Of a stretch of DNA of 50,043 bases, positions 1 to 46,334 are shown piece after piece (positions within the stretch are counted from its first letter, which is position 1; each line of letters opens with the position of its first letter). This DNA comes from a virus, in IMG/VR virus record IMGVR_UViG_3300047508_000210, positions 1 through 50,043 of that record; one strand, 5' to 3'. Below the pieces are notes generated by a model. That model saw only the letters and a list, made by a program, of their open reading frames with translations, was not told the DNA's origin and ran no database searches. The position numbers were made by a program, and so were the translations under genes.

Positions 1-127
1 CCTTGCTATTCCCTTGCGATTAAGCGATTATTCAAAATCTATGGTACTCTCACGGTGGGATGTACTCACTCCCCCTCCCATACCCCTATACCTATATATT
101 TATTTTTTTTTTTTTTTTTTTTTATTT
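1..127. repeat. Terminal direct repeat, left copy (circular overlap)
   Basis: Bases 1-127 are identical to 49917-50043, including the length of the 21-T run. The sequence therefore closes into a circle of about 49,916 bp. A 127-bp overlap matches a common assembler word size, so it is more likely an assembly overlap of a circular or permuted genome than a real physical terminal repeat. The sequence alone cannot exclude a true repeat. Confidence 0.95.
103..123. other. 21-T homopolymer in an AT-rich core
   Basis: An uninterrupted run of 21 T preceded by CTATATATTTA. It lies beside the dyad centre and is the least stable stretch in the window, a possible DNA-unwinding element. Its exact length is uncertain because homopolymers are sequenced poorly. 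Confidence 0.5.
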
Positions 128-203
128 CATTTAGACACGTGTACAGGGGGAGTAGGTACACTAGCAGGGGATAGGCATGAAGGTTTTTGTTAATCGCTTA
201 ATC

Positions 204-247
204 GCAAGGATATCGTGAGGATATCTCTTGGATATCGCAAGGATATG
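204..247 (+). repeat. Right iteron array, four 11-bp repeats
   Basis: Four head-to-tail copies start at 204, 215, 226 and 237: GCAAGGATATC, GTGAGGATATC, TCTTGGATATC and GCAAGGATATG. GGATAT is invariant. The 11-bp period is close to one helical turn, so a bound protein would contact one DNA face repeatedly. The array abuts the 19-bp inverted repeat. Confidence 0.85.
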
Positions 248-1322: not shown

Positions 1323-1843
1323 CCCATCGCAAGCCCGGCACCGCTACCATTCTCTCAGTCCGCCCGTTGACCGAGGCGGATTTGTCACATCTACGGGAGC
1401 GCGCTGTCCAGCAACCCATCCAGAAAATGCGTGATAGCCATCATCGCGTCGCCCGACTCATGGCCTCGGGTGTTTACAAAGACTATGAAGTCGCCCGCAT
1501 GTGCGGCTATTCCCTCGCCATGATCGGCCTCCTTCGCCACGACCCAGCCTTCAACGAAACCCTCGCCCACTATCGCGCGCTAGAATTCAACGAAGCCTCC
1601 GACTTCATCGCCCGTGAGCGAGAGGTCATGGAAGACCACGCAGTCAAAGCCAATCGCCGAATCACCGACATCCTCGACGACGAGGACACACCAATCCCCC
1701 TCGAGAAGCTCATCGCCCTCCGCGCTGATGCCCACGACCGCGTTGGCCTAACCAAAAAGCAAACCAACCTAAACCTCAACGTCGACTTCGCCGCCAAGCT
1801 CGAAGCCGCCATTGCCCGTACCAAGAAGGTTGCCGCAGAATGA
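1304..1843 (+). CDS. Putative terminase small subunit
   Basis: Encodes 179 residues. A helix-turn-helix-like segment at about 48-75 (YKDYEVARMCGYSLAMIGLL) fits the DNA-recognition domain of phage small terminases. It is followed by acidic helices and a C-terminal helical tail. It would recognise the packaging site and load the large subunit. The large terminase lies 1.35 kb downstream, separated by two exported-protein genes and a micro-ORF, an unusual interruption. It overlaps the GIY-YIG gene by 19 bp and the next gene by ATGA. The assignment rests on motif and position, not on a diagnostic residue set. Confidence 0.6.
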   Translation: MSPASLAHRKPGTATILSVRPLTEADLSHLRERAVQQPIQKMRDSHHRVARLMASGVYKDYEVARMCGYSLAMIGLLRHDPAFNETLAHYRALEFNEASDFIAREREVMEDHAVKANRRITDILDDEDTPIPLEKLIALRADAHDRVGLTKKQTNLNLNVDFAAKLEAAIARTKKVAAE

Positions 1844-2205
1844 AACGCCTCGCCCTAGTCGTTGCCCTATCGCTAGGGCTTGCCGTTCCAGGCTTATGCC
1901 AAATCGCCCCGAACACTTGGATCGCGGCGGCATACAACTTCACCAACATCACCACCGACGCAACGACCACGGTCGTCTCCGGGCCCAGCGTCCTCGGCGC
2001 GATCTGTATCAATACCACCGCGTCAACCGAAACCATCACCATCTACAACAACACCGCTGCCTCCGGGACCAAAGTCGGCACCATCACTCTCGGCACTTCC
2101 TCCGGCGGTTGCTATTCCTACAACGCCTACCTCGCTACCGGCCTCACCATCGTCACAGCCGTCGCAGCTGGTGACATTACCGTAATCTGGCATCCCGTTC
2201 CGTGA
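1840..2205 (+). CDS. Exported small beta-rich protein (decoration-like)
   Basis: Encodes 121 residues. Residues 1-20 form a Sec signal peptide (basic MKR, hydrophobic core, cleavage near GLC-QIA). The mature part is a Thr/Ser-rich beta protein; the order AICIN, TITIYNNTAASGTKVGTI, GLTIVTA, DITVIW resembles a small beta-sandwich family common among phage structural proteins. Two cysteines remain after cleavage. The cysteine at the cleavage site is not in a clear lipobox. Start overlaps the small terminase by ATGA. Export is odd for a virion protein. Either the signal is real and the protein acts in the periplasm, or the hydrophobic N-terminus has another use. Confidence 0.65.
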   Translation: MKRLALVVALSLGLAVPGLCQIAPNTWIAAAYNFTNITTDATTTVVSGPSVLGAICINTTASTETITIYNNTAASGTKVGTITLGTSSGGCYSYNAYLATGLTIVTAVAAGDITVIWHPVP

Positions 2206-3092
2206 TACGTTACCTCTTCATATTCCTCTTCCTCCTCGGTGTCACCCCGGCCCCGGCCCAAATGCTATTGCTCGGCTCCAGCAGCCCTGTCTCCAGTGGA
2301 GGCGGCGCCCCAGCCGGATGTACCGCTGCCACCAATTATCTCGCCCGCACAACCGGTGGTAACGAAGGCGGCAACGCAACCAACATCACCACCCTAATCT
2401 GTGGCCTCGTCACCGACGGCGTCATTACTGGCGATCTCTCTGGGGCGACTGGTTGCGGCGCATTCTTCGACGGGCTCTATATCACCGCGCAGCAAAACGC
2501 AACCGACGCCAAACTAAACCTATGCGGGACGAGCTACGGGTTGGGAACAACAACCGCGACGTTCACATCCTATCAAGGTTACTCAGCCTTTCCATCCCCG
2601 CCAATAGACACAGGGTTCAACCCATCCACAGCTAGCGGTCATTTTAACCCCGGCTCGGGGGGTGGGTTTGTTGGCAGCATGTCTGTTTGGGCATACGATG
2701 CGCCAAATAATATACAGGTGGGAACGTCTTCATCTGGCACCAGTTTTACCTATCTTCTTGCTAATTTATCCTCCGTGTTTTATTGTGATATTAACAATTC
2801 CGCCGCTGATAATTCCGTCGCGTCCCCAACGACGAACGGGTTTTATAGCTGCGACCGAACAGGGCAAACCAACACCAATTTATATTTTAACGGCTCTAGC
2901 TTAGGCACAGGTAACGCTGCGGCATCTAACGCCGTAGACAACATTGATCTATTCATCGGAGGTCGTCAAACGGATTTAAGTACCACCAAAACCCTTAGTG
3001 AGGCGAGCTTCGGCGGTCCACTTGGCGCAACCCTTCAAACTGCTCTCTACACCCGCCTCCGCGCCTACATGACCGCGGTAGGTGTGCCATGA
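2202..3092 (+). CDS. Exported lectin-like (concanavalin/LamG-type) phage protein
   Basis: Encodes 296 residues. A signal peptide (residues 1-19, ending APAQ) precedes a Gly/Ser linker and a domain with the hallmarks of the lectin-like C-terminal domains of phage tail and fibre proteins: NYLARTTG, LICGLVTDGV, IDTGFNPSTASG, NLYFNGSSLGTG, IDLFIGGR and an ending helix LRAYMTAVGV. Such domains usually bind glycans. Six cysteines suggest disulfides. It starts with GTG in a GTGA overlap. Bases about 2640-2990 are visibly more AT-rich than their surroundings, suggesting recent acquisition of the C-terminal half. Confidence 0.65.
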   Translation: MIRYLFIFLFLLGVTPAPAQMLLLGSSSPVSSGGGAPAGCTAATNYLARTTGGNEGGNATNITTLICGLVTDGVITGDLSGATGCGAFFDGLYITAQQNATDAKLNLCGTSYGLGTTTATFTSYQGYSAFPSPPIDTGFNPSTASGHFNPGSGGGFVGSMSVWAYDAPNNIQVGTSSSGTSFTYLLANLSSVFYCDINNSAADNSVASPTTNGFYSCDRTGQTNTNLYFNGSSLGTGNAAASNAVDNIDLFIGGRQTDLSTTKTLSEASFGGPLGATLQTALYTRLRAYMTAVGVP

Positions 3093-3199
3093 ATCCAGCA
3101 GCGGTCTCCCCCGCGCTGGTGAGACCCCCGGCCTCGTCGACGTTATTGGGCTTCGTCGACTTGATGGCCGGGGGTCGACCGGACCGCCACCATGGATGA
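3089..3199 (+). CDS. Coupled micro-ORF before terminase (36 aa)
   Basis: ATGA overlap with the preceding stop opens a 36-codon frame (MNPAAVSPALVRPPASS...) ending TGA inside the first codons of the large terminase. It contains a strong hairpin. It may serve to carry ribosomes to the terminase start rather than make a functional peptide; no homology is recognisable. Confidence 0.35.
   Translation: MNPAAVSPALVRPPASSTLLGFVDLMAGGRPDRHHG
3123..3176 (+). promoter_or_regulatory. Strong two-step hairpin just upstream of terL
   Basis: GACCCCCGGCC (3123-3133) pairs perfectly with GGCCGGGGGTC (3166-3176). Inside it, GTCGAC at 3136-3141 pairs with GTCGAC at 3155-3160. It ends 15 bases before the terminase ATG. 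No T-run follows, so it is not a standard terminator. It may control terminase translation or mark a packaging site. Confidence 0.6.
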
Positions 3200-4700
3200 G
3201 AAAGTCATCGCATGGCTCGCCGAAGTCCGCGACGATCCCCTCGCCTTCACCCTTGGCGCCTACCCATGGGGCGTGCCCGGCACGGTCCTCGAAAACTACC
3301 ACGGCCCCGATGACTGGTCCCGCGAACTCATGGAGCGCATCCGTACCGGCCTCCTCACTCCCAATGCCGCAATCCAAGAAGCCACCGCTTCCGGCCACGG
3401 TATCGGCAAATCCGCCACCGTCTCATGGCTCATCATGTGGGCCTTTTGCACTTTCCCCGATTGCCGCGGTACCATCACCGCCAACACCGAAGTCCAGCTT
3501 AAAACCAAAACCTGGTCTGAACTCGGCAAATGGTTCAACCTCTGCTGGTTCGCCCAAGACTCCTTCAACCTCGAAGCAACGGCGTTATTCAGCCGCGACC
3601 CCAACCGCAAATTCACATGGCGCATCGACATGGTGCCATGGTCCAAAAACCACCCCGCCGCGTTCGCCGGACTTCACAACCAAGGCAAACGCATAATCCT
3701 CCTCTTCGACGAGGCGTCAGAAATCGATGACATCATCTGGGAGACTGCCGAAGGGGCGCTCACTGACACAGACACGCAAATCCTATGGCTCGTCTTCGGC
3801 AATCCCACCCGAAACGTGGGCCGATTTCGTGAGTGCTTTGAAGGCGGAAGCCATGCGGAGTCGTGGCATTCCCGACAGATCGATTCACGTACCGTCAAGA
3901 TCACCAACAAATCCCGATTCGAACGATGGATAAAAACCTATGGCGCTGACTCTGACTTCGTTAGAGTTCGTGTTCTTGGACAGTTCCCTCGGCGCGGACT
4001 CCAAGAGTTTTTCTCTGCGAGCGACATCAGCGAAGCGATGTCCCGTGAACTCCCTTACACAGACCGATCTACACCGCTTGCTATTGGAGTTGACGTTGCC
4101 CGTTACGGTGGAAACAACTCCGTCATTTTCCCCCGCAAAGGCCGAGACGCCCGATCAATAGAACGGCAATCCTTCAATGGCCTCTCAACCACCGAACTCA
4201 CCAACAAGATTTTCGAGGCTTGGCAGCGTTGGCGTCCTGATGGTATTTTTATTGATGGCGGCGGTGTTGGTGGCGGCGTCGTTGATCAGTGTCGTAATAT
4301 ACGGCTGGCCGTTCACGAGGTTCAGTTCGGCGGAAAGGATGACATCACCGGCGTCAACGTCGACACTTCCGGCGAGCGCTACGCTAACAAACGAGCGGCC
4401 ATGTATGGGGCCGTTAGGGCTTGGCTCAAGTCCGGGGCCTTGCCCAACGATCCAGAATTAAAACAGGCGATGCTTGCAATCCGCTACACCATCCAAGAAA
4501 AAACCGGGGCGATTCTCCTCATCGCCAAAGAGGATTTGATGGAGGACAATCCAAACCTTGTCCTCGACGATCTTGATGCCCTAGCCTGTACCTTCGGCGG
4601 TCCACTAGTCGCCAGCGCCATCGCCGGTGGCGAGTTCCCCCACCGCGATCTCGTCGAATCCGAATACGATCCCTACGATGCCCAAAGGATAGCGGCATGA
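3192..4700 (+). CDS. terL: Terminase large subunit
   Basis: Encodes 502 residues: the DNA-packaging motor that docks on the portal, hydrolyses ATP and cuts the concatemer. ATPase domain: Walker A-like GHGIGKS (68-74), Walker B IILLFDE (168-174, with D173 and E174) and coupling motif FGNPT (203-207). The C-terminal RNase H-like nuclease has D301 in GVDVARYG, D355 in IFIDGGG and an aspartate cluster DDLDAL (459-464). The length is normal for phage terminases. The next gene overlaps its end by ATGA. A hairpin lies directly before the start. Confidence 0.95.
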   Translation: MDEKVIAWLAEVRDDPLAFTLGAYPWGVPGTVLENYHGPDDWSRELMERIRTGLLTPNAAIQEATASGHGIGKSATVSWLIMWAFCTFPDCRGTITANTEVQLKTKTWSELGKWFNLCWFAQDSFNLEATALFSRDPNRKFTWRIDMVPWSKNHPAAFAGLHNQGKRIILLFDEASEIDDIIWETAEGALTDTDTQILWLVFGNPTRNVGRFRECFEGGSHAESWHSRQIDSRTVKITNKSRFERWIKTYGADSDFVRVRVLGQFPRRGLQEFFSASDISEAMSRELPYTDRSTPLAIGVDVARYGGNNSVIFPRKGRDARSIERQSFNGLSTTELTNKIFEAWQRWRPDGIFIDGGGVGGGVVDQCRNIRLAVHEVQFGGKDDITGVNVDTSGERYANKRAAMYGAVRAWLKSGALPNDPELKQAMLAIRYTIQEKTGAILLIAKEDLMEDNPNLVLDDLDALACTFGGPLVASAIAGGEFPHRDLVESEYDPYDAQRIAA

Positions 4701-10774: not shown

Positions 10775-11182
10775 ATGCCCTCCGCTTTCGACGTAGCGCC
10801 GGTAGGCCCCACTTCAGGTGGCAAAGTCTACGCGTTTAACAACCTCGGTACTACGCCGGAAGTGGTGGCTCCGGCCAATCCTGCTCGAGCCTCGATCCGA
10901 TTCGATAACCAAGGAACGGTGGATGTCATCATCTTTCCTTGTAACGTCCAAGCCCTGAACCCAAGTTGGGTTGCGACCAGTACACTCCAAGGCGGGGTGA
11001 GCGGGAGTGTTAATCTCTCCAACGTCGCCCTCTCGCCCAATACCACCACACTTGGTGGTGGTTATCGCATCTTCGCCAATGGTGGCTTCATCATCTTCGC
11101 CGGTGAATGTCAGGGCTCCTTCCAAGCCCTTGCAATTACTGGCTCGGGCAATCCTCTCACAGTCACGGACTCGAACACGTGA
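10775..11182 (+). CDS. Hypothetical beta-rich structural protein
   Basis: Encodes 135 residues without a signal peptide, predicted all-beta: SIRFDNQGTVDVIIFP, VSGSVNLSNVAL, GGYRIFANGGFIIFAGE. The layout suggests a small capsid or fibre decoration protein. Two cysteines. Its stop overlaps the GTG of the following tailspike gene (GTGA). No specific family is recognised. Confidence 0.6.
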   Translation: MPSAFDVAPVGPTSGGKVYAFNNLGTTPEVVAPANPARASIRFDNQGTVDVIIFPCNVQALNPSWVATSTLQGGVSGSVNLSNVALSPNTTTLGGGYRIFANGGFIIFAGECQGSFQALAITGSGNPLTVTDSNT

Positions 11183-13347
11183 GAAAGCTTCTTTTAATTC
11201 TAGCTCTCCTATGGGCTGTTTCAGCAACGGCCCAACAGCAGGTATTCTGTCCAACCCGCCCGCCGGGTGATAATACCAATGCCTGTGCTAGCACCGCATT
11301 CGTGCAGGCTGCGGGTGGTGGTGGAGGTGGAGGAAGTCTTAGCGTTACGGATGGGACCCATACAGTTACCGGCACAACGGCCCTAACCTTCTCCGGTCCG
11401 GTGACAGTCTCCGGTTCAACCCCCAACGCCACAGTCACAGTCTCGCCCGGGGCGGTCACCATCACCAACAACTCCACCGCCGTCTCCGGTTTCACCAACG
11501 GCGATGTCCTCACCAACAACGGCTCCGTCGTCACCCAATCCAGCCCAACGATCACCGTCAACGGCACCAACTGCACGCTCGGGGCTTCTTGCTCCCCCAC
11601 CAATCCCACCTCCGCCAACATCCCCAACGCCTCTGGCTCGGCCGCCTTCACCGCGGGTTCCATCTCCGCGACATCCCACACCCTCACTCTCTCCGCGGCC
11701 CAAGACTTCACCAATGGTCAAGGCATCCGCATCAACCACGCAGGCGCGGCCTTCACCCTCAACCCACCCACAGGCGGGACCGTCACCCCTCTCGGCGCTG
11801 CGGGCTCAACCACTTACCAATACAAAATCGCCTCTGTCGACGCAGCGGGTGGGATAGGCGCAGTCACCGCCAGCTTCCAAACCACCGTTGCCCCGGCAAC
11901 TCTATCAAACCAAAACGCCAATCTCCTCAACTGGACAGCCCCGGCCTCGGGCACTCCCCCAACCGCCTATGCGATTTACAAAAATATCTCCGGGACCTAC
12001 ACCCTCGTAGGCTTGGCGGACTCCCTCCTTGAATGGGCCGACGAGGGCCTAACCGGCTTCCCATTCTGCGACTGGCTCCCAGCCACAGCCCCGGCCAGTC
12101 CGCTTGCCGATGCCCTTACCACCACCATCTCCGCGGGTGGCGGGACTACAAGCCTAACCCTCGCCGCCGCAGCCACAACCACTGCTAGTAACCAAGGCGT
12201 CTACCACGACGACTCAGCCGCGATTCAAGCGGCGTTGAATGTATCTGGAGTCCACCAAGTCACCGCCCCAACTGGCACATTCTACGTCGACACCAATTCC
12301 AACATCCCTACCGGCGTTCAATTCTCCGGCCAACGTTACGGTACCACTTTCAAAACCGTCTTCCCCAACCAGTCCGCCTTCTCAATCGGCGGCAATGCCT
12401 TCCTCAACGGAGCATTCTCCGACGCAATCTTCCAACTCGTCCCAGACAGTAAGGCTGTGAATCTAGTCAGCCCGGCAAATGCCAGGGTCAATGACATCTG
12501 GTGTCAGGGCGGTTCCACTGGTTGGGTTGCTACCCCCGCCTGTGTCTACACCACCGGCGGCGGTGCTGATATAACCATAGCCCACCTTATCATGGACGGC
12601 TGGGGCGGGGCGGTCAGCAATCTCGCCATACCAACCGGCGGCGATGTCCCGACCATCACCATGGATGGCACGGGTGAGGTGCTAGGCATCAACATCTCCG
12701 ATGTAATCATGACCAACGATTCCAGCGTTGGCACACTCAGCACCTACATCGCGTTTAATGATTGTTTCAACTGCAACCTCTCCACCGCTGTCCTCAATGC
12801 GAACTTTGGCGCCTCAGGCTCGGACATCTTCGGCACAGCGGGTGTTGGTGTTATCAACGGCAGTCAAGCGGTTCATATAAGCAACATCCAAACCTTGGGC
12901 TTTGATACAAACATCGTAATGGGCGGCACTGGCTCTGCCCCACTCCAGATGGATGTGACCGGTAGCCATTTCGACTTCTGCGGAACGGATTGCATCAACC
13001 TCTCCACCGGGAGTTGGGTGACGATCACCGGCAATACCTTTGATGGTGAAGGTAATTCCCCGTGGCTACTAGTTGGCAACCACGGCATCCACACTTCAGG
13101 CTCATTCACAGCAGGCCCAAATACAATCACCGGCAATGCCATCAAAGACTTCTCTGGTTCCGGCTCAAGCGCTATCCAGTTCACTTCCGCGATGAACGAT
13201 ACCATCGTCGGCGCTAATGCCATGACAAGCAATGCCACGGACGTCTCTGGCGGTACCGGTGGCACAGGCTCAGCCATCGGCCAGAATTGCTCCGGATCGC
13301 CCACCGGCAGCTTCTCCTCTCGTAACGGAATTGTGGGGCATTGCTAA
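11179..13347 (+). CDS. Exported tailspike-like beta-helix protein 1
   Basis: Encodes 722 residues from GTG at 11179 in a GTGA overlap. Residues 1-19 are a signal peptide (MRKLLLILALLWAVSATAQ). A seven-glycine linker, low-complexity Thr/Ser/Asn repeats and an FN3-like region (about 205-300) follow. From about 360 a pectate-lyase-type right-handed beta-helix starts at YHDDSAAIQAALN and continues in short Asn/Gly/Ser-rich coils to the end. Such domains are polysaccharide depolymerases or receptor-binding spikes. About a dozen cysteines fit an oxidising compartment. Whether it is on the virion or secreted cannot be told from sequence. Confidence 0.7.
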   Translation: MRKLLLILALLWAVSATAQQQVFCPTRPPGDNTNACASTAFVQAAGGGGGGGSLSVTDGTHTVTGTTALTFSGPVTVSGSTPNATVTVSPGAVTITNNSTAVSGFTNGDVLTNNGSVVTQSSPTITVNGTNCTLGASCSPTNPTSANIPNASGSAAFTAGSISATSHTLTLSAAQDFTNGQGIRINHAGAAFTLNPPTGGTVTPLGAAGSTTYQYKIASVDAAGGIGAVTASFQTTVAPATLSNQNANLLNWTAPASGTPPTAYAIYKNISGTYTLVGLADSLLEWADEGLTGFPFCDWLPATAPASPLADALTTTISAGGGTTSLTLAAAATTTASNQGVYHDDSAAIQAALNVSGVHQVTAPTGTFYVDTNSNIPTGVQFSGQRYGTTFKTVFPNQSAFSIGGNAFLNGAFSDAIFQLVPDSKAVNLVSPANARVNDIWCQGGSTGWVATPACVYTTGGGADITIAHLIMDGWGGAVSNLAIPTGGDVPTITMDGTGEVLGINISDVIMTNDSSVGTLSTYIAFNDCFNCNLSTAVLNANFGASGSDIFGTAGVGVINGSQAVHISNIQTLGFDTNIVMGGTGSAPLQMDVTGSHFDFCGTDCINLSTGSWVTITGNTFDGEGNSPWLLVGNHGIHTSGSFTAGPNTITGNAIKDFSGSGSSAIQFTSAMNDTIVGANAMTSNATDVSGGTGGTGSAIGQNCSGSPTGSFSSRNGIVGHC

Positions 13348-16300
13348 TGCGCCGTTTACTCATAGCTCTATGCATCTGGCTACTAGCTGGTGCACCCGTC
13401 TGGGCGCAGTTCAACGGCCAGTCCGGCATCTACGCGCTGAATCATATGTGGTTCAGCATCATGGCGCAGAACCTAACCGTCGCCACACCAGGCTCTGGTT
13501 ATGCCACCAACGACACCGTCACCCTCGATTGCCCCGATACCAATATCTTCCAAACCCCGCATACAACCCGTCCAGTAGTCACTTGGAACGGAAGTTCATG
13601 GACCCTCACCAATCCCGGCGTTTCAACCTCCATCCCATCAACCGGACTAGCTGGGGGCAATAACGGAACCTGTGTCTTAACTCAATTCGCAACATCGGGT
13701 ACGGGTTCAGGCGTTAGTTTCAACGCCACCTTTGGTTTCAACGCCGCATCGTTGAACGGTAGCAACTCGGGTGGGGGAGGTGGAGGTAGTGGCATTACCA
13801 TCGGCACCACCACCATCACCGGCGGAGTTAACGGCGAGTGTATATACGACAACTCCGGAGTTGCTGGGGTTATAACCTGCGGCGGCGGGGGAGGTGGTTC
13901 AGTCACGGTCTATGCCACGCATGCCGCGTTGATCGCAGGGACCACAACGCTAGGAACGGGGCCAATAGTACAACAGGGTTTTACGGCTACGGGCGATGGC
14001 GGTCAGGCGGTTTATCAGCCGAACGCCTCATCCTATTGCCCCGGCGGGTCATCAGGCTCGCCAACCGCCGCTGACGGACTCACCTGTATTCTTCCTTCTG
14101 GGCAAAGCGCTAGCACGGCTGGCCGATACCTTCTACAAGTGTCCGGCGAGATTGATGTTCGTGTGGTGGGAATGCAGCCCGGAGGGCAGGATAATAGTCC
14201 GTACGTTGCGGCATTACTAGCTGCGGCCGGTCCTGTGCTTAATAATGGCCCCGGTCCGGTCTTTGTTTTCCCTCCACTTCTTGGTTTAAACTATACATAC
14301 TGGTATTTCTCCAGTCAGCTCACTGCTTCTGTTGGGGGACAATTTGATTGTCGCGGGCACGTATCGGAGCAGTCTGGCGCGTCTGTGCTGGTCTTTGCCC
14401 CAGGTACTAACGGAGTCGTGCAGGCTAATACCGGAGGGACAGGCCAGACTGATATAAGCCGTTGCACAATCACATCTCTCGGTGGAGGAACCGCTGCAAA
14501 CCCGACCTTCGGGTCGAGCACTATAAATAACGTTAGCTTAAACGGCCTTCTCGGGGGAATTTTCACCTTCCCATCAGCCTGCACTCCGGTCGGCGGGCAA
14601 TGCACCTTTGGTGTTGGCGATGGGGTCATCATGGCTTCTCAAAGCGCCATGATGACTGCTCCTGGCGCGTATGTGAGTGCGGTGTCTGGGCGGACGCTAA
14701 CCCTAGCATCTCCTTACACCATCCTAGCTACGGCAGCGGCCATTCCAACGAGAATTTTCGATCTTCCCGTGAGTCAAAAATACACCATCCAAACAACAAC
14801 TGGCAGCAATTCAGCGACCGTAACCGCAGGTCCGCGTCCCTTGGAACCGGGGGATATGCTCTGGTCCGACGCCTTCCTGTTCGGGGCGACCGTGCTTACC
14901 GTGAGCAATTCGACCGCTTTTCCCCAAACAATCACCGTGTTCGATGTAACGATGACGAGCCACGCTAATGCGCTGGTTACTCACACCGGCGGGTCTCCGG
15001 GACAAATGTGGATAGCCCCGGCCGGGGTGGAAAGACAGGTGCAGGGTTCCTTGCATCAAGATGCAGTAACATTTTTCCCGTTTGAACTAAGATTGTCTTG
15101 TTCAGCCTCCACCGTTCCCGCGGGTGGATGCAACGGAAGCTTTGACCAAGAGAATAGCTTACAGTTTGGACTGATTGGCCGATTAACTCGTGGCGATAAC
15201 ACGGGTGGCAGCACTATTATTAGCAACGTGTACGCGCAGAATGCGCTTATGGACGAAGTGGAGGCGGGAACAATCGGAAGCACTTATGTTGGCGAAGAGG
15301 ACAATAGCCAAGATAGCGGCACGTCGGCATATGGGACAATAACTTTCTGCACCGGAACTAGCGCAACAACATACATCGGATCATACCTATCTGGTCAAAG
15401 TCCTAACGCTGTCTGCCTGGGACTTGATGCGCAAAGCAATCCATCGATTGTTGCGACGCCCGTAAATGGGCAGGCGGCCTTGTTTCTTGGGCCGCTGTTT
15501 GGTTCGCCCCCGCCGTCAATTGTCGGGGGTGAGATGACGGGGGCTTGGAGTTTCCAAGGCCCAAGCACTGCAACCGTGGTGGCCACCACCCCAACCGCTT
15601 CCGGTACTGTGATCGCTGTTCCGACTACTATTCAGGTGCAAAACGGGACCAAAATTACTGATCTCACTAACGCGGTTATTCCAGTTAATACGACCATCGT
15701 ATCACACGCTGTTAATACGGTAACTTTATCAAACGCACTAACGGGTGGGGGTATTCTTACCAATGATATTATTCAATATTCGAGTGATGGTGTTGGAAAC
15801 CCCTCTATCCACATAAACGGTGGTATTGGGGCTAATGCGGGGGTATCGTTTGATCCCAATACATCATCCTTGTATAATCTTCTCATGCAGTTTGATGGGT
15901 ATGTAGGTTCATGGGATTTCGGCGCCATGCGCTTTGGCGGATTGCTTTACCAAGGTTATAACCCAGGTGGCGTATCGAACTTTATAGTGCTGCCTGGCGG
16001 GGCCACGATTGGGAATAACTCCGAAGATTTTACCGGGATGGAGAGGCTTCTTGACGGTGGCAGTGTCCAGCCAACTGATCCCACGCATCTTCAGGGTGAT
16101 ACGCGGATAAATAGCAAGCCTTTGCCTGGGGGGAATCTGGCTTGGACAGACGCAGCATCGTTCTCCACGTCGCTAACCGCGAATGTTACTGCCGGCGTGA
16201 CGACTTCGGTTGCGGTTGCGGCTTGTCCCTCGCCATCGCTTCCGGCTGGTACGCCGATTGTCGCGTATCAGAACTACCAGATTTCAGGACTGGTAGTCTT

Positions 16301-16724
16301 GGATCAGCCTTTGGGAACGCTATCTTCATGCTCCGGTACGACCCTGACATTCCAAGCCGCTGCGGCTTATAATAGTCTAAGCAGCACTGTGATCCGGTTC
16401 TTGCAATGGCAGAAAGCGGGGATAATTCAGGACGGCATTCCGAGTATTTCGTCTTGCGGTACCGGAACGCCGACCGTAACAGCGGGGTCGAATAATATCG
16501 GCGGTCAGTTCACTATGGGGACTGGAACGCCAACCGCCTGCACAATTCTATTCGCTCACGCTTACCCGAACGTTGGCTTTTGTACCGTGACCCCAGTGTC
16601 TTCCGGCGGTGCGGCTATTACGGGTGGCTATTACCTTTCTACTGCGAATAACACCGGGTTTGTGTTGACGTTGGGAACCGGCACTTCTAGTCTTGTATTC
16701 GACTACACCTGTACGGGTAACTAA
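13347..16724 (+). CDS. Exported tailspike-like protein 2, cysteine-rich
   Basis: Encodes 1125 residues from ATG at 13347 (TAATG overlap). Signal peptide residues 1-20, ending VWA-Q. Then a GSGY...NDTV module (about 42-130) related to modules in the tail-tube proteins, glycine-run linkers, a beta-helix-like region (about 185-800) beginning ATHAALIAG and GEIDVRVVGMQPGG, and a C-terminal beta domain (GTGTPTACTILFAHAYP) typical of phage fibre tips. About 20 cysteines remain after cleavage, far more than in the cytoplasmic head proteins. Likely a host-surface glycan-binding or -degrading protein. Confidence 0.7.
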   Translation: MRRLLIALCIWLLAGAPVWAQFNGQSGIYALNHMWFSIMAQNLTVATPGSGYATNDTVTLDCPDTNIFQTPHTTRPVVTWNGSSWTLTNPGVSTSIPSTGLAGGNNGTCVLTQFATSGTGSGVSFNATFGFNAASLNGSNSGGGGGGSGITIGTTTITGGVNGECIYDNSGVAGVITCGGGGGGSVTVYATHAALIAGTTTLGTGPIVQQGFTATGDGGQAVYQPNASSYCPGGSSGSPTAADGLTCILPSGQSASTAGRYLLQVSGEIDVRVVGMQPGGQDNSPYVAALLAAAGPVLNNGPGPVFVFPPLLGLNYTYWYFSSQLTASVGGQFDCRGHVSEQSGASVLVFAPGTNGVVQANTGGTGQTDISRCTITSLGGGTAANPTFGSSTINNVSLNGLLGGIFTFPSACTPVGGQCTFGVGDGVIMASQSAMMTAPGAYVSAVSGRTLTLASPYTILATAAAIPTRIFDLPVSQKYTIQTTTGSNSATVTAGPRPLEPGDMLWSDAFLFGATVLTVSNSTAFPQTITVFDVTMTSHANALVTHTGGSPGQMWIAPAGVERQVQGSLHQDAVTFFPFELRLSCSASTVPAGGCNGSFDQENSLQFGLIGRLTRGDNTGGSTIISNVYAQNALMDEVEAGTIGSTYVGEEDNSQDSGTSAYGTITFCTGTSATTYIGSYLSGQSPNAVCLGLDAQSNPSIVATPVNGQAALFLGPLFGSPPPSIVGGEMTGAWSFQGPSTATVVATTPTASGTVIAVPTTIQVQNGTKITDLTNAVIPVNTTIVSHAVNTVTLSNALTGGGILTNDIIQYSSDGVGNPSIHINGGIGANAGVSFDPNTSSLYNLLMQFDGYVGSWDFGAMRFGGLLYQGYNPGGVSNFIVLPGGATIGNNSEDFTGMERLLDGGSVQPTDPTHLQGDTRINSKPLPGGNLAWTDAASFSTSLTANVTAGVTTSVAVAACPSPSLPAGTPIVAYQNYQISGLVVLDQPLGTLSSCSGTTLTFQAAAAYNSLSSTVIRFLQWQKAGIIQDGIPSISSCGTGTPTVTAGSNNIGGQFTMGTGTPTACTILFAHAYPNVGFCTVTPVSSGGAAITGGYYLSTANNTGFVLTLGTGTSSLVFDYTCTGN

Positions 16725-33139: not shown

Positions 33140-33369
33140 GCGAGCCGGTGGAGATAGCGCTGATTACCAGTATCCTCCCGGTGATTGCTACGGTGATCAG
33201 CGCTTTGATTGCGTGGGCTGTTTCTCGCAATGCGGCGAAGAAGATTAATGAAATACATTTGATTGTAAATAGCCAGCGGAGTGAGATGATGCTGGAAATC
33301 CAAAGCCAAGCCGAGCAGATTAGGAAATTGAAAAATACTATTGAAGGGTTTGACCGTCCTGCTCGGTAG
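33136..33369 (+). CDS. Small membrane-anchored protein with coiled-coil tail
   Basis: Encodes 77 residues: one hydrophobic helix (about 7-29, IALITSILPVIATVISALIAW), then a coiled coil (MMLEIQSQAEQIRKLKNTIE). ATGA overlap with the previous gene. Holin- or spanin-like by topology only. It is the last rightward gene; its final 32 bases overlap the convergent ATPase gene. Confidence 0.6.
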   Translation: MSEPVEIALITSILPVIATVISALIAWAVSRNAAKKINEIHLIVNSQRSEMMLEIQSQAEQIRKLKNTIEGFDRPAR

Positions 33370-34675
33370 GTCCGGCGGAGAACATCCGATACCCGGTTTT
33401 GCTGTCGATTCCGCGGTTTTGAATTAACCCAGCCGATTCCATTACATCAAATACCTTCATCAGGGTGTGGATGGGGATGTATTCCCGGGCAAAGTTAGTA
33501 ATCTTGTGTTCCGCCACGCCCTTGCCGCGATCAGTTACCCTGATGAAGTGGACGATTTCATTCATCGCCTGTGAATCCACACTCACAGTCCCGGCTTTGA
33601 AGATGTCGGGCATGTAGGCTTCGGCTTCCGATAACCATCCAAGTGCACGTATAAAGTCAGCAGCTGTGAGGACAAGGGAATTGGAGCGGTCCACCGCCGA
33701 GACCATTGATAATTTGTATATATTAACCTTCCTCCGTGATATGTAATGGAGAAGCTTCGGGTGTTTAGGTATGGGTGGCTCGCCTTGGCTAACCCAAGTG
33801 TTAACACAACGTGCGTATTCTTCAGTGACATGAAACTCTCCGGCGAGATTGTGGATGATGTTTAGGTCGTGCGAGAGATCGCCGAGCTTAGGCGCTGGGC
33901 GTTTGGCGAAGTCGTCGATGATAATACGTTCGCCGGAATAGACCATGATGGTGCGGGACGTAAACCCCTGCCCCCACGCTACATCGGGGAGTAGCTTGAG
34001 CAAATCCTGCGGCGCACAGGCGCAGAGCATGGATACCTGTGGGCGATCGATCTTTATCTTAATGTCGTTCGTTCGCCGGTTCTGGGCGTAGGGGTCGACG
34101 TCATAGAAGGCGCTAAGCCCCTTGATCATTTCCTCATCCCATTTATGGATGAACGCCCCGAGCTCCTCCGCGCAGATATAAATTGAATTGTACTCCTGTA
34201 CCTCATCACTACCAGGTATTGCGATTGTGCGCTTTGCCAAATCCATCACGTCGACCAATGCCGGGAACGTCATGGAAGTTGGTGCGATAGCGAATTCCGG
34301 AACTGCCATACCCAAGCGCTTTGCGACTCTCAAGGTCCTCGTTTTGCCAGTGCCAGGCTCGCCAATGATCATCATATACAGGTTGGGATAGAGTGCGCTT
34401 GAGGTTTGTATCCATACCCGTTGCTCCAACACCGCGGCTATTGCAGAAATCGCCACCCATTGCCGCCAGATTTTGGGTGCGCCGAGATTTTCGGTTTCAC
34501 TTACAAATGACCCTATCCAAGATATGCACTTTCGGGCGACGACTCCGCGTGTCGTGTCCAGTATATTCTCTGAGTCCGTCGGGATTCGGGTGTGTGCCCC
34601 GACAGTCTTTCTTGCACCCGAGCCCTGATCCTGGCTTGCCACAGCAGTATTTCCCTTTGTTCCAACCGGTTTCAC
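33338..34675 (-). CDS. DUF3987-like replicative ATPase/helicase
   Basis: Encodes 445 residues. The block SWIGSFVSETENLGAPKIW, then RQWVAISAIAAVLEQRVW and a Walker A GEPGTGKT (105-112) fit the DUF3987 group, often fused to primases or encoded as helicase-like ATPases in phages. IYICAEELGAF (Walker B-like, E170/E171) and a later LLCACAPQDLL follow. No primase domain is seen. Start: GTG at 34675, inside the polymerase gene (179-bp overlap). No strong ribosome-binding site and no closer ATG, GTG or TTG exists, so the start is uncertain. Last gene of the leftward block. Confidence 0.7.
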   Translation of the reverse strand: MKPVGTKGNTAVASQDQGSGARKTVGAHTRIPTDSENILDTTRGVVARKCISWIGSFVSETENLGAPKIWRQWVAISAIAAVLEQRVWIQTSSALYPNLYMMIIGEPGTGKTRTLRVAKRLGMAVPEFAIAPTSMTFPALVDVMDLAKRTIAIPGSDEVQEYNSIYICAEELGAFIHKWDEEMIKGLSAFYDVDPYAQNRRTNDIKIKIDRPQVSMLCACAPQDLLKLLPDVAWGQGFTSRTIMVYSGERIIIDDFAKRPAPKLGDLSHDLNIIHNLAGEFHVTEEYARCVNTWVSQGEPPIPKHPKLLHYISRRKVNIYKLSMVSAVDRSNSLVLTAADFIRALGWLSEAEAYMPDIFKAGTVSVDSQAMNEIVHFIRVTDRGKGVAEHKITNFAREYIPIHTLMKVFDVMESAGLIQNRGIDSKTGYRMFSAGPTEQDGQTLQ

Positions 34676-36035
34676 AATCGTAGGGGATGCGGAGGGTGCG
34701 ACCGTTGTTCAACTCGATCGGCACCACCAAATTCGCAGCGAGGATGGGCACAATCCTATCCTCGGTTTCTTCGGGGTACATGAAGGTGATTGCGTCGTGG
34801 TCTTGGAACATGACTATAGCTAGGTTTTGGAGCCAGATGTTGAGCATTGCGGTGTTGACGATGTCGGCGAGGGAGCCTTGGGGATCGTAGGCGATGGCTT
34901 GGCGAAAGGTTTTGGGGTCGGTGCGGCGGCCATGGAAATGGCGACGTCGGCCGGTGAGGGTGGTGAGGGTGCCGGTGGTTCGCAGTTGTTCGCGGGTCCA
35001 GTCGTGCCAGAGTAGGTGGGCGGGAAAGGCTTTGAAGTATTTGGGCTGGAAGGCTTGGACAATTTCCAAATCTAATCTTGTCTGCGCGGCTAGGGTTGGC
35101 GGCATACCGCCATAGTTACTTCCATGCCCGAGTTTTTTGCATGTGAAACGGTAAGAGTGGTGGCGATAGAAGGGTTGCTCTGCAACGTGCCGGTCAGTTT
35201 CCAAGTTGCCACTCCAGGGTAAGCTTGGCCAACATAATCTAGCAACTGCTGTGTGAGGGTCTCCAGATTCACACGCGGCAAGGTATCGGTCGTCGGCGAA
35301 GAGGTTCCATTCGATTGCGCCGACGCAGAAGGATTCGCCGGATTTGGCGTCGAATTTAGCGAACTTCTGGCCTCTATCAGCGATAAATATGCTGCGCAGA
35401 GATTCTTCCACGTTCTGGAGATTTCCTCCGGTTCCAAACTCGGATAGGCTAGAACTAAAGCGTCCTGTGCCCGTGCCAGCGATGTTATAGCTCGTTCTAA
35501 TTCGACCATCTGGATCGATTTCCGTCCTGAGAACACTGATCTTATCTCCTAGCTCTGTCATCAAGTTGATATGCCGCACGATCTGCGTGGCAGCGGGGTA
35601 GTTCTCAAGCTGTTCCCGGGCAGCCCGGTCTGTCGTCGGTCGGCCTTGCTTTAGGATTTCGGGGAGTTGGAGTTCGTCGTAGAATAGGCGCTGGAGGTCT
35701 TGGTTGGATCGCCAGTTAAAACTCGACATTCCCACGCCTTTGAGCACGATATCATCAAGGTCTCTTTCGAGTCTATCGAGAAGATCGGCAAACTCGTCGA
35801 TAACTTCATCGCGTCGTCCCATGTCAACGAGGCAACCTCGGAGCCGCATATCCAACACAGGACCTTGTAATGCCTTTGAAAACTCATACGTCGCCCTCGT
35901 TTGGTTGTCGAGTTGGGGTTCGATGGCGGACCAGATGGAGGAAGTTTGGCAAACGTCCAAGCCGTTGTATATCATCTCCCGATCCCATTCGGTGAGATCG
36001 TCTGGGTCCATGAGGTGGGTGCGGATGATTCTCAA
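34497..36035 (-). CDS. Family A DNA polymerase (exo motif III plus polymerase domain)
   Basis: Encodes 512 residues from TTG at 36035, in a TTGA overlap with the UDG-exonuclease gene. Residues Y23 and D27 (MIYNGLDVCQT) are exonuclease motif III, separated from motifs I and II, which lie on the other protein. Polymerase motifs: TGTGRFSSS (187-195), motif A D229-xxxx-E234 (FDAKSGES), motif B R296-x3-K300-x7-Y308-G, motif C H413-D414 followed by Ala instead of Glu. After TGWNKG a Cys-rich tail (C464, C465, C474, C478) overlaps the helicase frame. It should be the replicative polymerase together with the preceding protein. Confidence 0.85.
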   Translation of the reverse strand: MRIIRTHLMDPDDLTEWDREMIYNGLDVCQTSSIWSAIEPQLDNQTRATYEFSKALQGPVLDMRLRGCLVDMGRRDEVIDEFADLLDRLERDLDDIVLKGVGMSSFNWRSNQDLQRLFYDELQLPEILKQGRPTTDRAAREQLENYPAATQIVRHINLMTELGDKISVLRTEIDPDGRIRTSYNIAGTGTGRFSSSLSEFGTGGNLQNVEESLRSIFIADRGQKFAKFDAKSGESFCVGAIEWNLFADDRYLAACESGDPHTAVARLCWPSLPWSGNLETDRHVAEQPFYRHHSYRFTCKKLGHGSNYGGMPPTLAAQTRLDLEIVQAFQPKYFKAFPAHLLWHDWTREQLRTTGTLTTLTGRRRHFHGRRTDPKTFRQAIAYDPQGSLADIVNTAMLNIWLQNLAIVMFQDHDAITFMYPEETEDRIVPILAANLVVPIELNNGRTLRIPYDCETGWNKGKYCCGKPGSGLGCKKDCRGTHPNPDGLREYTGHDTRSRRPKVHILDRVICK

Positions 36036-37132
36036 TTATCACCTTTGATGGTTTTTGCCTTCTTCCCAAGATGCTTCCATGCGCCTTCGTCGGTATAGAC
36101 CGAGCCCAAGAATCCCAGATCCTTAATCATCTCCGGCTGCAGGGCGTGGTGGGCGAGCATGGTATCCTCACTCGCGCCCATGACCCGGATGCCCATGGAG
36201 CGGTAGAGGAACGCTATATCGTAGAGTCCGTTTTGGAATAGCTTCGGGATTGATTGATCTTCGAGAACTCCCACAATAAGTTTCCAAGCGTCGTATTCAA
36301 ACTCTGCAGTTGCCCAATAACTTCGGCTTTTTCCTCGCGGGTCATCAAAGGGTATAACGATCGCAACCCCGGAGTATCCCATGCCAAGGCAAGTAATTCG
36401 CTCCCCGCTCGTTTCAATGTCGACAGACAGCGGTCGAACTCCTTCCCTTCGGATAACACTGCTAATGAATGTTTCGATGTCGGAAATAGTAGGCTCAATC
36501 CATATCTCACGCTCAGGCCTCCGTATGGTTGGGGTGGTGGACTCACGCAGGGCTTTGATTAGATCGGCAATTACTATTGACCGATCTTTAGGCTGTTTGA
36601 ACAAATAAGAAGGATGATAGGTGGCAATGCACTTAAAATCAGCCGCACAGTGCGTAGATAGAAAGGTAGAGCCTCGGAATTTCTTAATGCCAGTCCGTCC
36701 AGATAAAGCCCAGAAAGGAGTATTGCCAAGACAAATGACAATATTAGGGTTGATAGTGAGAAGTTCATTGGCAAGTCGGTCCAACTCGGTGGCGTATTGT
36801 CTACTAACATACTTCGATTTGACCAAGGCAGGGTAATCGTCCAAGCCCAAGAACTTGGGTCCGCATAGGGTGGCCAAGTCATTACCGTCTGGGTGGAGGT
36901 TGAAGACATTTGTTCGGTGGAGATCACTGTGGCGCTCCCAGATTTTGGCGTTGTAGCGCGGGTTTCGGGTTTTATAGTATTGGTTCATCAGCATTTTGTC
37001 GGTGGCGTCGAACTCGATGATGCCCGCGTCACTGAGGAGGCGGAGCAAAAACCCACCTGACGGCCCGACGAAGGGGATGCCAAGGCGGAGTTCTTCCTGT
37101 CCCCAAGCTTCGCCGATTAGGAGAATGGACAT
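36032..37132 (-). CDS. UDG-like domain fused to 3'-5' exonuclease (N-terminal part of polymerase)
   Basis: Encodes 366 residues. Residues 1-190 are a uracil-DNA glycosylase superfamily domain (family 4/5-like): GEAWGQEE (7-14), IPFVGPSG, VICLGNTPFWAL and HPS (173-175). The four-cysteine iron-sulfur pattern is not evident. Residues 230-366 are the DEDDy exonuclease: DIE (238-240), FQNGLYD (299-305) and DTMLAHHAL. The domain ends before motif III, which begins the next gene. UDG-exonuclease-polymerase fusions are known in SPO1-like and other phages; here the chain is in two genes. Confidence 0.85.
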   Translation of the reverse strand: MSILLIGEAWGQEELRLGIPFVGPSGGFLLRLLSDAGIIEFDATDKMLMNQYYKTRNPRYNAKIWERHSDLHRTNVFNLHPDGNDLATLCGPKFLGLDDYPALVKSKYVSRQYATELDRLANELLTINPNIVICLGNTPFWALSGRTGIKKFRGSTFLSTHCAADFKCIATYHPSYLFKQPKDRSIVIADLIKALRESTTPTIRRPEREIWIEPTISDIETFISSVIRREGVRPLSVDIETSGERITCLGMGYSGVAIVIPFDDPRGKSRSYWATAEFEYDAWKLIVGVLEDQSIPKLFQNGLYDIAFLYRSMGIRVMGASEDTMLAHHALQPEMIKDLGFLGSVYTDEGAWKHLGKKAKTIKGDN

Positions 37133-37140
37133 TAGGCTTC

Positions 37141-37178
37141 CAAATAAAATGGGGAGAGAAGCCGAAGCCTCCCTCCCC
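37141..37178 (-). terminator. Rho-independent terminator between SSB-like and UDG-exo genes
   Basis: On the minus strand, a 12-bp stem (37167-37178 with 37151-37162, two G-T wobbles) closes on a TTCG tetraloop and is followed by ATTTTATTTG. It lies directly after the stop of the gene at 37187. It should reduce transcription of the downstream polymerase and helicase genes, which must depend on read-through, antitermination or their own promoter. Confidence 0.85.
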
Positions 37179-37186
37179 GAGGTTGG

Positions 37187-37675
37187 TTAGTCCGTCAACG
37201 CAAAGGTTCGGGCAATTCGCGCAAACTTCGGCGTTTCCGGATCATCCCGATCAGCGTTATCGGGGTACTGGTATTCGACGATGATGCCGACTTCGTAGTT
37301 CATGACGAGATCGTTTCGCTGACGACGGGATGCCGCCTGTTTGAGGTCCAACCCACAATGGGAATGGAACTGTTCGAAGCGGAACGCGTTCTTGTCGGTG
37401 ATATAGATGGTGTGGTCGAGGGTTTTGTCCTCCGATCCTCCAGCCGCCTCGATCGCCTCAAGAAACTCGTCCTCCGTCATCGACTTGGGCGGTTCGATGG
37501 CGGTTATGTTGGAAATCGGCCAACGGGCGAAGGGTGTGCCTTTCTGCTTGGACTTGTCGTAGGTAACCGCCCCGACGGTGCCGCGATATGATCCCTCGGG
37601 CAATTGCTTGGGAAGTTCAACATGATCGGGCGTTGCGTCGAGGATGGAGGCGAAGTTTGTTGTGACAGCGTTCAT
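37187..37675 (-). CDS. Putative single-stranded DNA-binding protein
   Basis: Encodes 162 residues. The start ASILDATPDHVELPKQLPEG leads to a beta-rich OB-like pattern (YRGTVGAVTYDKSK, FARWPISNITAIE) with an acidic C-terminal segment (NADRDDPETPKFA). Its place between the recombination ATPase and polymerase genes fits an SSB or DUF669-like replication protein. No diagnostic motif, so the call rests on pattern and neighbours. TAATG overlap with the previous gene; a terminator follows. Confidence 0.5.
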   Translation of the reverse strand: MNAVTTNFASILDATPDHVELPKQLPEGSYRGTVGAVTYDKSKQKGTPFARWPISNITAIEPPKSMTEDEFLEAIEAAGGSEDKTLDHTIYITDKNAFRFEQFHSHCGLDLKQAASRRQRNDLVMNYEVGIIVEYQYPDNADRDDPETPKFARIARTFALTD

Positions 37676-37884
37676 TAGTGTGACACTCCTGGGGTTGCGT
37701 TGAAGGAATCGAAGATGGTTCGGAGTCGGGTTTCGATTTGGGTTTTGATCGCGGTGACGATTGGCGATGGCTCCTTTACACTGTCGAAATAGGCGTGGAA
37801 TTGGATCATTTGGTCTAGGGTGATGACGCCGTCGGCTTGTCGGTTATTCTGCATCGCCGCAGGGTTGAAGTGGCGTTCTGCCAT
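37675..37884 (-). CDS. Hypothetical protein in replication cluster
   Basis: Encodes 69 residues: MAERHFNPAAMQNNRQADG, then a helical part (VITLDQMIQFHAYFDSVKEP, VTAIKTQIETRLRTIFDSF). TAATG overlaps at both ends bind it between the RecA-like ATPase and the SSB-like gene, suggesting an accessory role in recombination or replication. Family not recognised. Confidence 0.6.
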   Translation of the reverse strand: MAERHFNPAAMQNNRQADGVITLDQMIQFHAYFDSVKEPSPIVTAIKTQIETRLRTIFDSFNATPGVSH

Positions 37885-38726
37885 TAGGTTGCCTTCCGTT
37901 GGAGTGGGAGAACCGTGGAGCGCTTCGCAGGTGGTTCTCGGAACGCTGCGAAGAAGTCGGCAAGACCGGTGTCGCTGGGGAGGGTGGCAGGGAGTTTGCG
38001 GGCGGAGGCCAACGCAATCATATTGTCCGACTCTAGTTGGATCGTACGCTTGCCTTGCCCGTCCATCTTATACCGCACATAGTTTGGGAAATATTGCGGG
38101 ATTTTGGGGCTAAGCTTTTGCCCGACACCTTGAGGGAAGATGCGCTTGGAGCCATCGGGCATGTCCATGTAGAGCCCGTGGCAGATCACGATGACGTTGG
38201 TGTTGAAGGATCGGGCGGTGAGCATACCGAGGACCTTTTCCACGTCATCCTGGGCATTGCCGTAGACTGCCCGGCCGTCGTACCCACCTGTCTGCGCGGA
38301 CTTGGGGATGGCACTTTCATGGAAATCATACGCCGCATCGCATAGCCTGCTCAACGAGTCGATAACCAGTATAGTATCACTATCCCAACTAGCAGGAACA
38401 CCAAGGTCGATGTCATCGTATTTCCAACTGTCGAGCATTTTGATGGCGTTTATCCATGCGGCGGGTTTGCCTGCGATCACAGCGCCGGCTGATCCTGCAC
38501 GGATAGGATCGCGGAGAGTGCGATAATCGACATTAGCAAGCTTATCAGGGCAACGCTCCTTGACCAGTTGGTAGAAGTAGTCAAGTAGATTGTCGAAATC
38601 AAGGATACGTAGCTTATACCCAGCGTTAACAAGACTAACCAGAGAAGCGGTTTTTCCAACTTTGGCGTCTCCGAGCAGTAGCAGTTTGACGATGGATGTG
38701 GAGTGGTGGTCGGCCAGACTGGTCAT
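37884..38726 (-). CDS. Sak4-like / RecA-fold ATPase
   Basis: Encodes 280 residues. Walker A LLLLGDAKVGKTAS (15-28) and Walker B TILVIDSLSRL (118-128, D123) with a later NVIVICHGLY strand fit the AAA_24/Sak4 group of phage single-strand annealing ATPases within the RecA superfamily. Sak4-type proteins promote annealing with phage SSB, and an SSB-like gene lies just downstream. ATGA overlap with the DUF6378-like gene and TAATG with the next. Confidence 0.8.
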   Translation of the reverse strand: MTSLADHHSTSIVKLLLLGDAKVGKTASLVSLVNAGYKLRILDFDNLLDYFYQLVKERCPDKLANVDYRTLRDPIRAGSAGAVIAGKPAAWINAIKMLDSWKYDDIDLGVPASWDSDTILVIDSLSRLCDAAYDFHESAIPKSAQTGGYDGRAVYGNAQDDVEKVLGMLTARSFNTNVIVICHGLYMDMPDGSKRIFPQGVGQKLSPKIPQYFPNYVRYKMDGQGKRTIQLESDNMIALASARKLPATLPSDTGLADFFAAFREPPAKRSTVLPLQRKAT

Positions 38727-39025
38727 CGTGGGTTTGGTTCCTCACAACAAATATTGGCGCCACAGGCAGCATAGCCTGCGACATCGGTCCATGAGTCGAG
38801 ATGGTTAGACTGATTGCTGAGACGGGCAACCTTCATAAGGATCATCATATTGGCGATGTCATCAGCGCGGAGAAGGTCTGGCTTTGCGCCGAATTTGTTG
38901 GTTTGATAAGCGTTCCAGAGCCGGGCGATGTTGTTGAAATTATCTTCGGGGAGGCCATAGTTAAGCCCTCTGTCAGCGACGGCATCAGCTGTGATCTGTA
39001 GTAGACGAGACTTGGTTATCTTCAT
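38723..39025 (-). CDS. DUF6378-like protein
   Basis: Encodes 100 residues. ITADAVADRGLNYGLPEDNF, then IARLWNAYQ, ADDIANMMILMKVARLSN and DSWTDVAGYAACG match a small phage family often annotated DUF6378, whose biochemical role is unknown. The segment LMKVARL...DSWTDVAGYA is its clearest signature. The start is three bases after the stop of the GcrA-like frame; the stop overlaps the next gene by ATGA. Confidence 0.75.
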   Translation of the reverse strand: MKITKSRLLQITADAVADRGLNYGLPEDNFNNIARLWNAYQTNKFGAKPDLLRADDIANMMILMKVARLSNQSNHLDSWTDVAGYAACGANICCEEPNPR

Positions 39026-39200
39026 CGCCTACCACCCTCTCAATCGTAATCCTAATCCTGTCAGCTTTTTGAAAGGTGTTGCCGACGTGGAAGCGCTCGT
39101 TGAGTCCGAGGGGGAGGAAGCTGTCAGGCGTGGCGTCGGCGATCGACGTTTCGATGATGTACCGTAGATTTGGTTGCCGGTCTTGCCCTTTTGTAACCAT
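38985..39200 (-). CDS. Overlapping frame with strong coding character (71 aa)
   Basis: Encodes MVTKGQDRQPNLRYIIETSI..., then FLPLGLNERFHVGNTFQKAD and RIRITIERVVGDED. Codons in the middle end mostly in C, as in accepted genes here, while the GcrA-like frame over the same bases reads as Ser/Thr-rich low complexity. AGGATAGGCGC precedes the ATG. It overlaps the GcrA-like gene by 172 bp and the DUF6378 gene by 41 bp. It may be a real overlapping gene or the displaced C-terminal half of the GcrA-like protein. Confidence 0.45.
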   Translation of the reverse strand: MVTKGQDRQPNLRYIIETSIADATPDSFLPLGLNERFHVGNTFQKADRIRITIERVVGDEDNQVSSTTDHS

Positions 39201-39349
39201 GCGCCTATCCTATAGCTGCGGCCAATGACAGAGTTGCGGGTGCGGTGGAGGGAGTCGGCAATTTCCCTTGCGGAAAGGCCTTTGTCAGCGGATTGGATTA
39301 GGAGCAGGTCCTCTTCGGGTGTCCATGATTTGCCGCCAAATGTGTTCAT
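39029..39349 (-). CDS. GcrA-like DNA-binding protein
   Basis: Encodes 106 residues. KSWTPEEDLLLIQSADKGLS, then AREIADSLHRTRNSVIGRSY and RIG closely follow the N-terminal helix-turn-helix of GcrA, the alphaproteobacterial cell-cycle regulator that acts with sigma-70 at methylated promoters. The C-terminal half (from about 55) is Ser/Thr-rich and may not be the functional frame. It would bind host or phage promoters. It lies seven bases after the nuclease gene and just before DUF6378. Confidence 0.65.
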   Translation of the reverse strand: MNTFGGKSWTPEEDLLLIQSADKGLSAREIADSLHRTRNSVIGRSYRIGAWLQKGKTGNQIYGTSSKRRSPTPRLTASSPSDSTSASTSATPFKKLTGLGLRLRGW

Positions 39350-39355
39350 GAGCGT

Positions 39356-40351: not shown

Positions 40352-40369
40352 TGGGCTGTTCCTTGTAGG

Positions 40370-42486: not shown

Positions 42487-42493
42487 GGGCGGC

Positions 42494-44088: not shown

Positions 44089-44158
44089 GTTGCTGGCATC
44101 CTGCGATTGTCCTTAGATGATACGGGATTTTTTGGATTTGTCAAGTTGAGGGTGCGGA

Positions 44159-45239: not shown

Positions 45240-45288
45240 GGAGACACCATACAGTTGTGTTGTCTCGTACCCGCCTTGCGGCGCCCGA
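45240..45288 (-). promoter_or_regulatory. Short intergenic with two stem-loops
   Basis: GAGACA (45240-45245) pairs with TGTCTC (45260-45265), and CGCC-TTGC-GGCG forms a second hairpin at about 45272-45283 (GCAA loop on the minus strand). Together they fill the leader of the next minus-strand gene and may limit or regulate its translation. Confidence 0.4.
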
Positions 45289-46281: not shown

Positions 46282-46290
46282 GGGGGATAG

Positions 46291-46318: not shown

Positions 46319-46334
46319 TCCCTGGGGTTGGAGT

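Follow-up and report, generated by a model that had tools for sequence, protein, structure and literature searches.

The window, the whole 50,043-nucleotide stretch of viral DNA analyzed here, repeats itself exactly over 127 bp at its ends, with positions 1-127 matching 49917-50043 letter for letter, and thus represents a circle of 49,916 bp. A length of 127 is a usual assembler k-mer, and the closing overlaps of relatives, which measure 127, 121, 97, 78 or 66 bp, lie elsewhere in their genomes. The window overlap is therefore most simply an assembly product rather than biology; it provides no evidence of virion ends and was rejected as a physical terminal repeat. The virus is a tailed phage, and its terminase, portal and capsid are related to those of epsilon15-type podoviruses. 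Its genes form two divergent blocks, one leftward (33338-49800) and one rightward (363-33369), which are divided by a large dyad at the circle junction, an arrangement already noted in the first-pass annotation and borne out here.

The leftward block contains a replication block (33338-40351, minus strand) encoding a DUF3987 helicase/primase-like protein (33338-34675), a family A polymerase (34497-36035), a UDG-exonuclease (36032-37132), a protein at 37187-37675, a Sak4-like ATPase (37884-38726) and a PDDEXK nuclease (39356-40351). Polymerase functions are divided between two overlapping genes (34497-37132), one carrying the polymerase domain and the other a uracil-DNA-glycosylase/exonuclease fusion. 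A small GcrA-like gene within the early block (39029-39349) hints at an alphaproteobacterial host, whose RNA polymerase its product may redirect. Closer to the dyad, and also on the minus strand, are genes for a probable ribbon-helix-helix protein (42914-43159), which turned up in 13 of 20 searched genomes, a small conserved protein (43553-43864) and a basic Ala/Lys-rich protein (47439-48140; family mean pI 9.6), whose gene is the closest to the dyad among the leftward genes shared by all close family members. The first leftward ORF (49615-49800, 62 aa including the stop codon) starts at an ATG just after a promoter described below; a longer mechanical version extending to 49914 would overlap the iterons. 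On the plus strand, the first ORF (363-707, 114 aa) occupies a position where many relatives carry a small fast-evolving gene, and is followed by a GIY-YIG nuclease gene that is the conserved right neighbor of the dyad (936-1322), a helix-turn-helix (HTH) protein gene (1304-1843) and the gene for the large terminase, TerL (3192-4700). The HTH protein shows weak fold matches to the phage protein 2ao9 and, encoded just upstream of TerL, is probably the small terminase. Large signal-peptide-like ORFs are located between the HTH gene and TerL (1840-3092), after the capsid genes (11107-16724) and in the early block (40648-42486), and are missing or different in relatives. A CCCCGGGGGCCAAAATTTTGCC / CCCCGGGGGCCAAAATTTTG element at 745-785 recurs as a single copy 550-730 bp to the right of the dyad center in several relatives (present in the window, WIN, and in G004, G007, G013, G014 and G021, with a near-match in G023).

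Once the circle is closed, the dyad spans about 270 bp, from circle position -26 to 247 (with 49916 as 0), around a single center at 110.5, so that paired coordinates sum to 221. Its left arm (49890-49933, plus strand) consists of four 11-bp iterons, GATATCCTTGC (49890-49900), GATATCCTTAC (49901-49911), CATATCCTTGC (49912-49922) and TATTCCCTTGC (49923-49933), the last two of which also form window positions 1-17. Four units of the same type make up the right arm (204-247, minus strand) at 204-214, 215-225, 226-236 and 237-247, in exact mirror register with the left ones at -26 to 17. Further inverted repeats share the sum of 221, namely a perfect 19-bp repeat with its left copy, CCTTGCGATTAAGCGATTA, at 12-30 (plus strand) and its right copy at 191-209 (minus strand), a 17-bp repeat (-25 to -9 and 230-246) and a 9-bp repeat (68-76 and 145-153). 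The C-rich TGTACTCACTCCCCCT (61-76, plus strand) pairs at 14 of 16 positions with the G-rich AGGGGGAGTAGGTACA (145-160, minus strand). Between them lies an AT-rich core (97-131) holding the symmetry center and a run of 21 T (103-123), the longest mono- or dinucleotide repeat of the genome. Complementarity within 150 bp of the center is 78, compared with a mean of 38 (sd 5.8) and 55 for the next best unrelated center, which corresponds to z = 7.0 against all other centers scanned (±160 bp scan); the window dyad is not due to chance. Rotation and recomputation thus recovered the four iterons per side, the perfect 19-bp repeat, the common center and the 21-T run of the first-pass annotation. Its C-rich inverted repeat is present, with a slightly better match than the 13 of 15 reported, and of its interval 1-247 the right end holds while the left does not, the element beginning earlier, at 49890.

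Using TerL as query, 63 related loci were identified among viral contigs. No nucleotide relatives were found in the phage collection, and searches of isolate and host genomes matched three metagenome-assembled contigs, none of the three with a dyad. In 18 genomes rotated to TerL, which are mutually related and not fully independent, a strong dyad is located 1.8-5.7 kb upstream of TerL, with leftward genes on one side and the rightward small gene, GIY-YIG gene and HTH gene on the other. Over all loci, about 38 distinct dyads with z values of 5-9 lie upstream of TerL, compared with a maximum z of 5.5 in 242 kb of control sequence downstream of TerL; the reported score also served to place some of these centers, but the period, the center repeats and the promoter were measured separately. 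In L017, a locus with sufficient DNA upstream to judge, no dyad was seen. Pseudomonas phage AF (L121, about 33800-34050) shows what looks like a strong dyad but is of a different kind, arising from tandem GCTGCGTCCCTG units inside a gene.

Conservation of the arms in relatives, on which the earlier proposal depended, holds for the mirror layout of these roughly 38 dyads but not for the arm sequence, which for the most part cannot be aligned from one phage to another. Within a phage, the two arms are 0.57-0.71 identical at 40-110 bp from the center, falling to near background less than 20 bp from the center and more than 140 bp out. Arm identity is 0.62 in register, 0.36 at shifts of ±11 and about 0.26 at other shifts, and the likeness of the arms therefore goes beyond a shared repeat unit. 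Autocorrelation of the arms across 38 dyads peaks at lags of 11, 22 and 33 bp, a spacing that would place protein sites along a single helical face. Judged by eye, iteron units vary around GAWAnnCCC, and where a genome yields a clear iteron matrix, only 0-2 iteron-like matches occur elsewhere, never in tandem. DNA left of the center is C-rich and DNA right of it G-rich.

The core has an AT fraction of 0.59-0.65 within 20 bp of the center, and in 14 of the 18 genomes no mono- or dinucleotide run elsewhere is longer than the one at the center (combined p about 3e-32, treating windows as independent). The type of run changes between phages (A, T, TA, GA or GT). A protelomerase site forming hairpin telomeres was considered and rejected, as its palindrome must run through the center and the central 20-30 bp match at 0.24-0.38, at or near background. 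Among nine circular contigs, two (the window and G016) have their break within the dyad; the simple-repeat core may hinder assembly, or depth may change at this point. Outside the left arm of the window lies a leftward sigma-70 promoter (49810-49838, minus strand; -35 TTGACT at 49838-49833, 17-bp spacer, -10 TATAGT at 49815-49810), and a promoter of this TTGACA-N17-TATAAT type is found 135-203 bp left of the center in 16 of the 18 genomes. A rightward counterpart is missing in most of the 18. On the right flank, TCACGATTTTGTGA-type palindromes are present in one or two copies in G004, G006, G008, G009, G013 and G014 and rarely elsewhere in the genome; these palindromes or a related motif lie 140-305 bp right of the center in several genomes and are a possible operator of the rightward block.

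Covariation of both arms in relatives, a check suggested by the first-pass annotation, was nearly absent. Close phage pairs show mostly single-arm changes with almost no compensating pairs, and arm mismatches have no wobble excess on the top strand. As single strands the dyads do fold better than shuffles (mean z -5.7), but a hairpin is not selected base by base, given the dominance of single-arm changes and the missing wobble excess, and a base-paired hairpin was accordingly rejected as the selected feature, although the phages may still make use of one. No Rfam match to an RNA element was found, and no inversion of the spacer was seen between close relatives. Because close pairs differ mostly in one arm, yet all family members keep their arms in register, we infer that one arm is repeatedly re-homogenized from the other or that the element is replaced wholesale. 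Template switching is known to homogenize inverted repeats (PMC8604942).

No known Rep was found as the cognate initiator, and candidate binders were drawn from synteny and co-occurrence only, including the HTH, 43553-type, basic and ribbon-helix-helix proteins. A coevolution test for the binder, comparing protein distance with iteron similarity, gave a best partial correlation of 0.30 among 54 families. For the basic protein at 47439-48140, structure prediction with fold search and a PDB profile search returned no match. A distant relative, G024, has a dyad with z = 8.0 and an A22 center, and its contig also carries the HTH gene, a gene of the 43553 type and genes for replication/recombination. 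The basic, coiled-coil, GIY-YIG and ribbon-helix-helix genes were not found on this partial contig, an absence that is only indicative, and the DUF3987 and polymerase genes probably lie beyond its end. The more distant G017 is missing both the dyad and the HTH gene. By gene content, the candidate binders that remain are the HTH and 43553-type proteins along with the DUF3987/polymerase proteins. The one relative in culture whose replication module is homologous, Caulobacter phage Kuura, encodes homologs of the polymerase, DUF3987 protein, UDG-exonuclease, Sak4, nuclease and HTH protein in the same divergent layout and also keeps the 43553-type protein, but is without the dyad. Kuura has 606-bp terminal repeats mapped by PhageTerm (PMC9959647), which fall at the junction syntenic with the dyad site.

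We regard an initiator-dependent phage replication origin as the most likely function of the dyad, since, at one locus next to the early promoter, phased sites flank a tract prone to melting, and give this reading about an even chance of being correct. A phage-encoded initiator would bind the 11-bp iterons on one face of the DNA in both arms, in mirror image, and the two arm complexes would clamp and unwind the simple-repeat, AT-rich center. The replication machinery would then load at the center and proceed outward both ways, with the strong leftward promoter beside the dyad switching on the early replication block. Initiator, unwinding and bidirectional start are inferred parts of this model. 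Two features by which iteron origins are recognized are found here, tandem repeats at one locus, as predicted initiator sites, and next to them a tract that is AT-rich or melts easily. Plotted cumulatively, GC skew has one turning point at the dyad or no more than about 3 kb from it and a second near the opposite point of the circle, although the switch in gene direction comes only about 0.67 of the way around. C is enriched on the outward coding strand, opposite to the usual leading-strand bias. Because of this unusual sign, and because codon bias and gene identity confound the skew, we treat it as weak. The initiator-dependent origin advanced in the first-pass annotation is therefore upheld in part, through a layout kept in about 38 relatives, an unwinding-prone center and confined iterons; on the other side, arm letters are not conserved, no initiator can be named, and Kuura, with its replication genes and 606-bp ends at the junction, counts against an origin by doing without the dyad.

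The first-pass annotation had offered a transcription switch as its alternative, in which one regulator would occupy both iteron arrays and, by looping or spreading over the core, set early leftward against late rightward expression. The placement of the dyad between divergent blocks, the early sigma-70 promoter that 16 of 18 genomes have just beyond the left arm and the right-flank palindromes, rare elsewhere, all keep this alternative supported. However, regulators usually have several operators and the iterons are nearly absent elsewhere in the clear-iteron genomes, most genomes show no rightward mirror of the promoter, and a switch leaves unexplained both the longest simple repeat of the genome at the center and whole-arm in-register identity beyond the iterons. 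We prefer an origin and consider a switch unlikely, though a serious rival. Equally unlikely in our estimate, and likewise a serious rival given the patterns in Kuura, G024 and G017, is a packaging or genome-end site, where the small terminase would bind the phased repeats and the concatemer would be cut, or terminal repeats duplicated via a hairpin, at or near the dyad. The HTH protein, small-terminase-like by its weak matches to 2ao9, is kept together with the dyad in G024 and was not found in dyad-less G017, the PhageTerm-mapped Kuura repeats lie at the same junction (PMC9959647), two of nine circular contigs break inside the dyad, and the single-stranded dyads fold better than shuffles. 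Packaging is a directional process that does not need a symmetric site, though, Kuura has an HTH homolog yet no dyad, and the single-arm changes without top-strand wobble excess speak against base-by-base selection of a hairpin.

The 11-bp period and split arrays also recall parC of plasmid R1, a partition centromere whose iterons form two clusters on either side of a promoter. ParR of R1, a ribbon-helix-helix protein, binds these split arrays (PMC5016525), and a ribbon-helix-helix-like gene is present in 13 of 20 of the phage genomes. That gene was not found in dyad-bearing G024 or in six further dyad-bearing genomes, no ParM, ParA or TubZ was detected among the genes searched, so that the R1 combination of ParR and ParM in one operon is missing, and no integrase or plasmid-prophage trait was seen. 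With no motor gene and with the promoter outside the arrays rather than between them, a centromere of this type is very improbable.

If the dyad is an origin, it may represent a class in which mirrored phased arrays flank a fast-changing simple-repeat core, the sequence turns over wholesale while the arms are re-homogenized, and initiator specificity changes together with its site; we put this forward tentatively, as somewhat doubtful. Dozens of soil phages keep the layout and not the letters, which makes the site invisible to annotation by sequence similarity. Through the dyad, the likely origin of soil phages that have not been cultured could be located, the roughly 38 natural variants allow the study of a DNA-binding protein and its site changing together, and the arms are a natural test of homogenization between inverted repeats.

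Among known systems, the Kuura terminal repeat junction resembles the dyad in setting, with a syntenic place, a divergent layout and related replication genes (PMC9959647). It differs in consisting of 606-bp direct terminal repeats with no dyad. In parC of R1, repeats are spaced at 11 bp and the clusters share one orientation. The phage dyad likewise has 11-bp repeats in two clusters, split as in R1 (PMC5016525). Unlike the R1 clusters, which flank the par promoter, the phage arrays are inverted, their promoter lies outside and no motor gene was found. The HSV origins oriS and oriL sit between divergent transcription units. In oriS, the AT-rich spacer between inverted binding boxes becomes bent and melts, a likeness to the phage dyad in mechanism only, with no homology claimed (PMC12543377). 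oriS has three binding boxes, no 11-bp helical array, and is bound by the helicase UL9. In plasmid and phage iteron origins, the iterons are usually direct and located on one side of the AT-rich tract. With the lambda ori, RepA_N plasmids and PLE (PMC7145576), the dyad shares repeated initiator sites, here predicted, beside an easily melted tract. It is set apart from these origins by having no recognized initiator gene and by its two arrays, mirrored around the tract.
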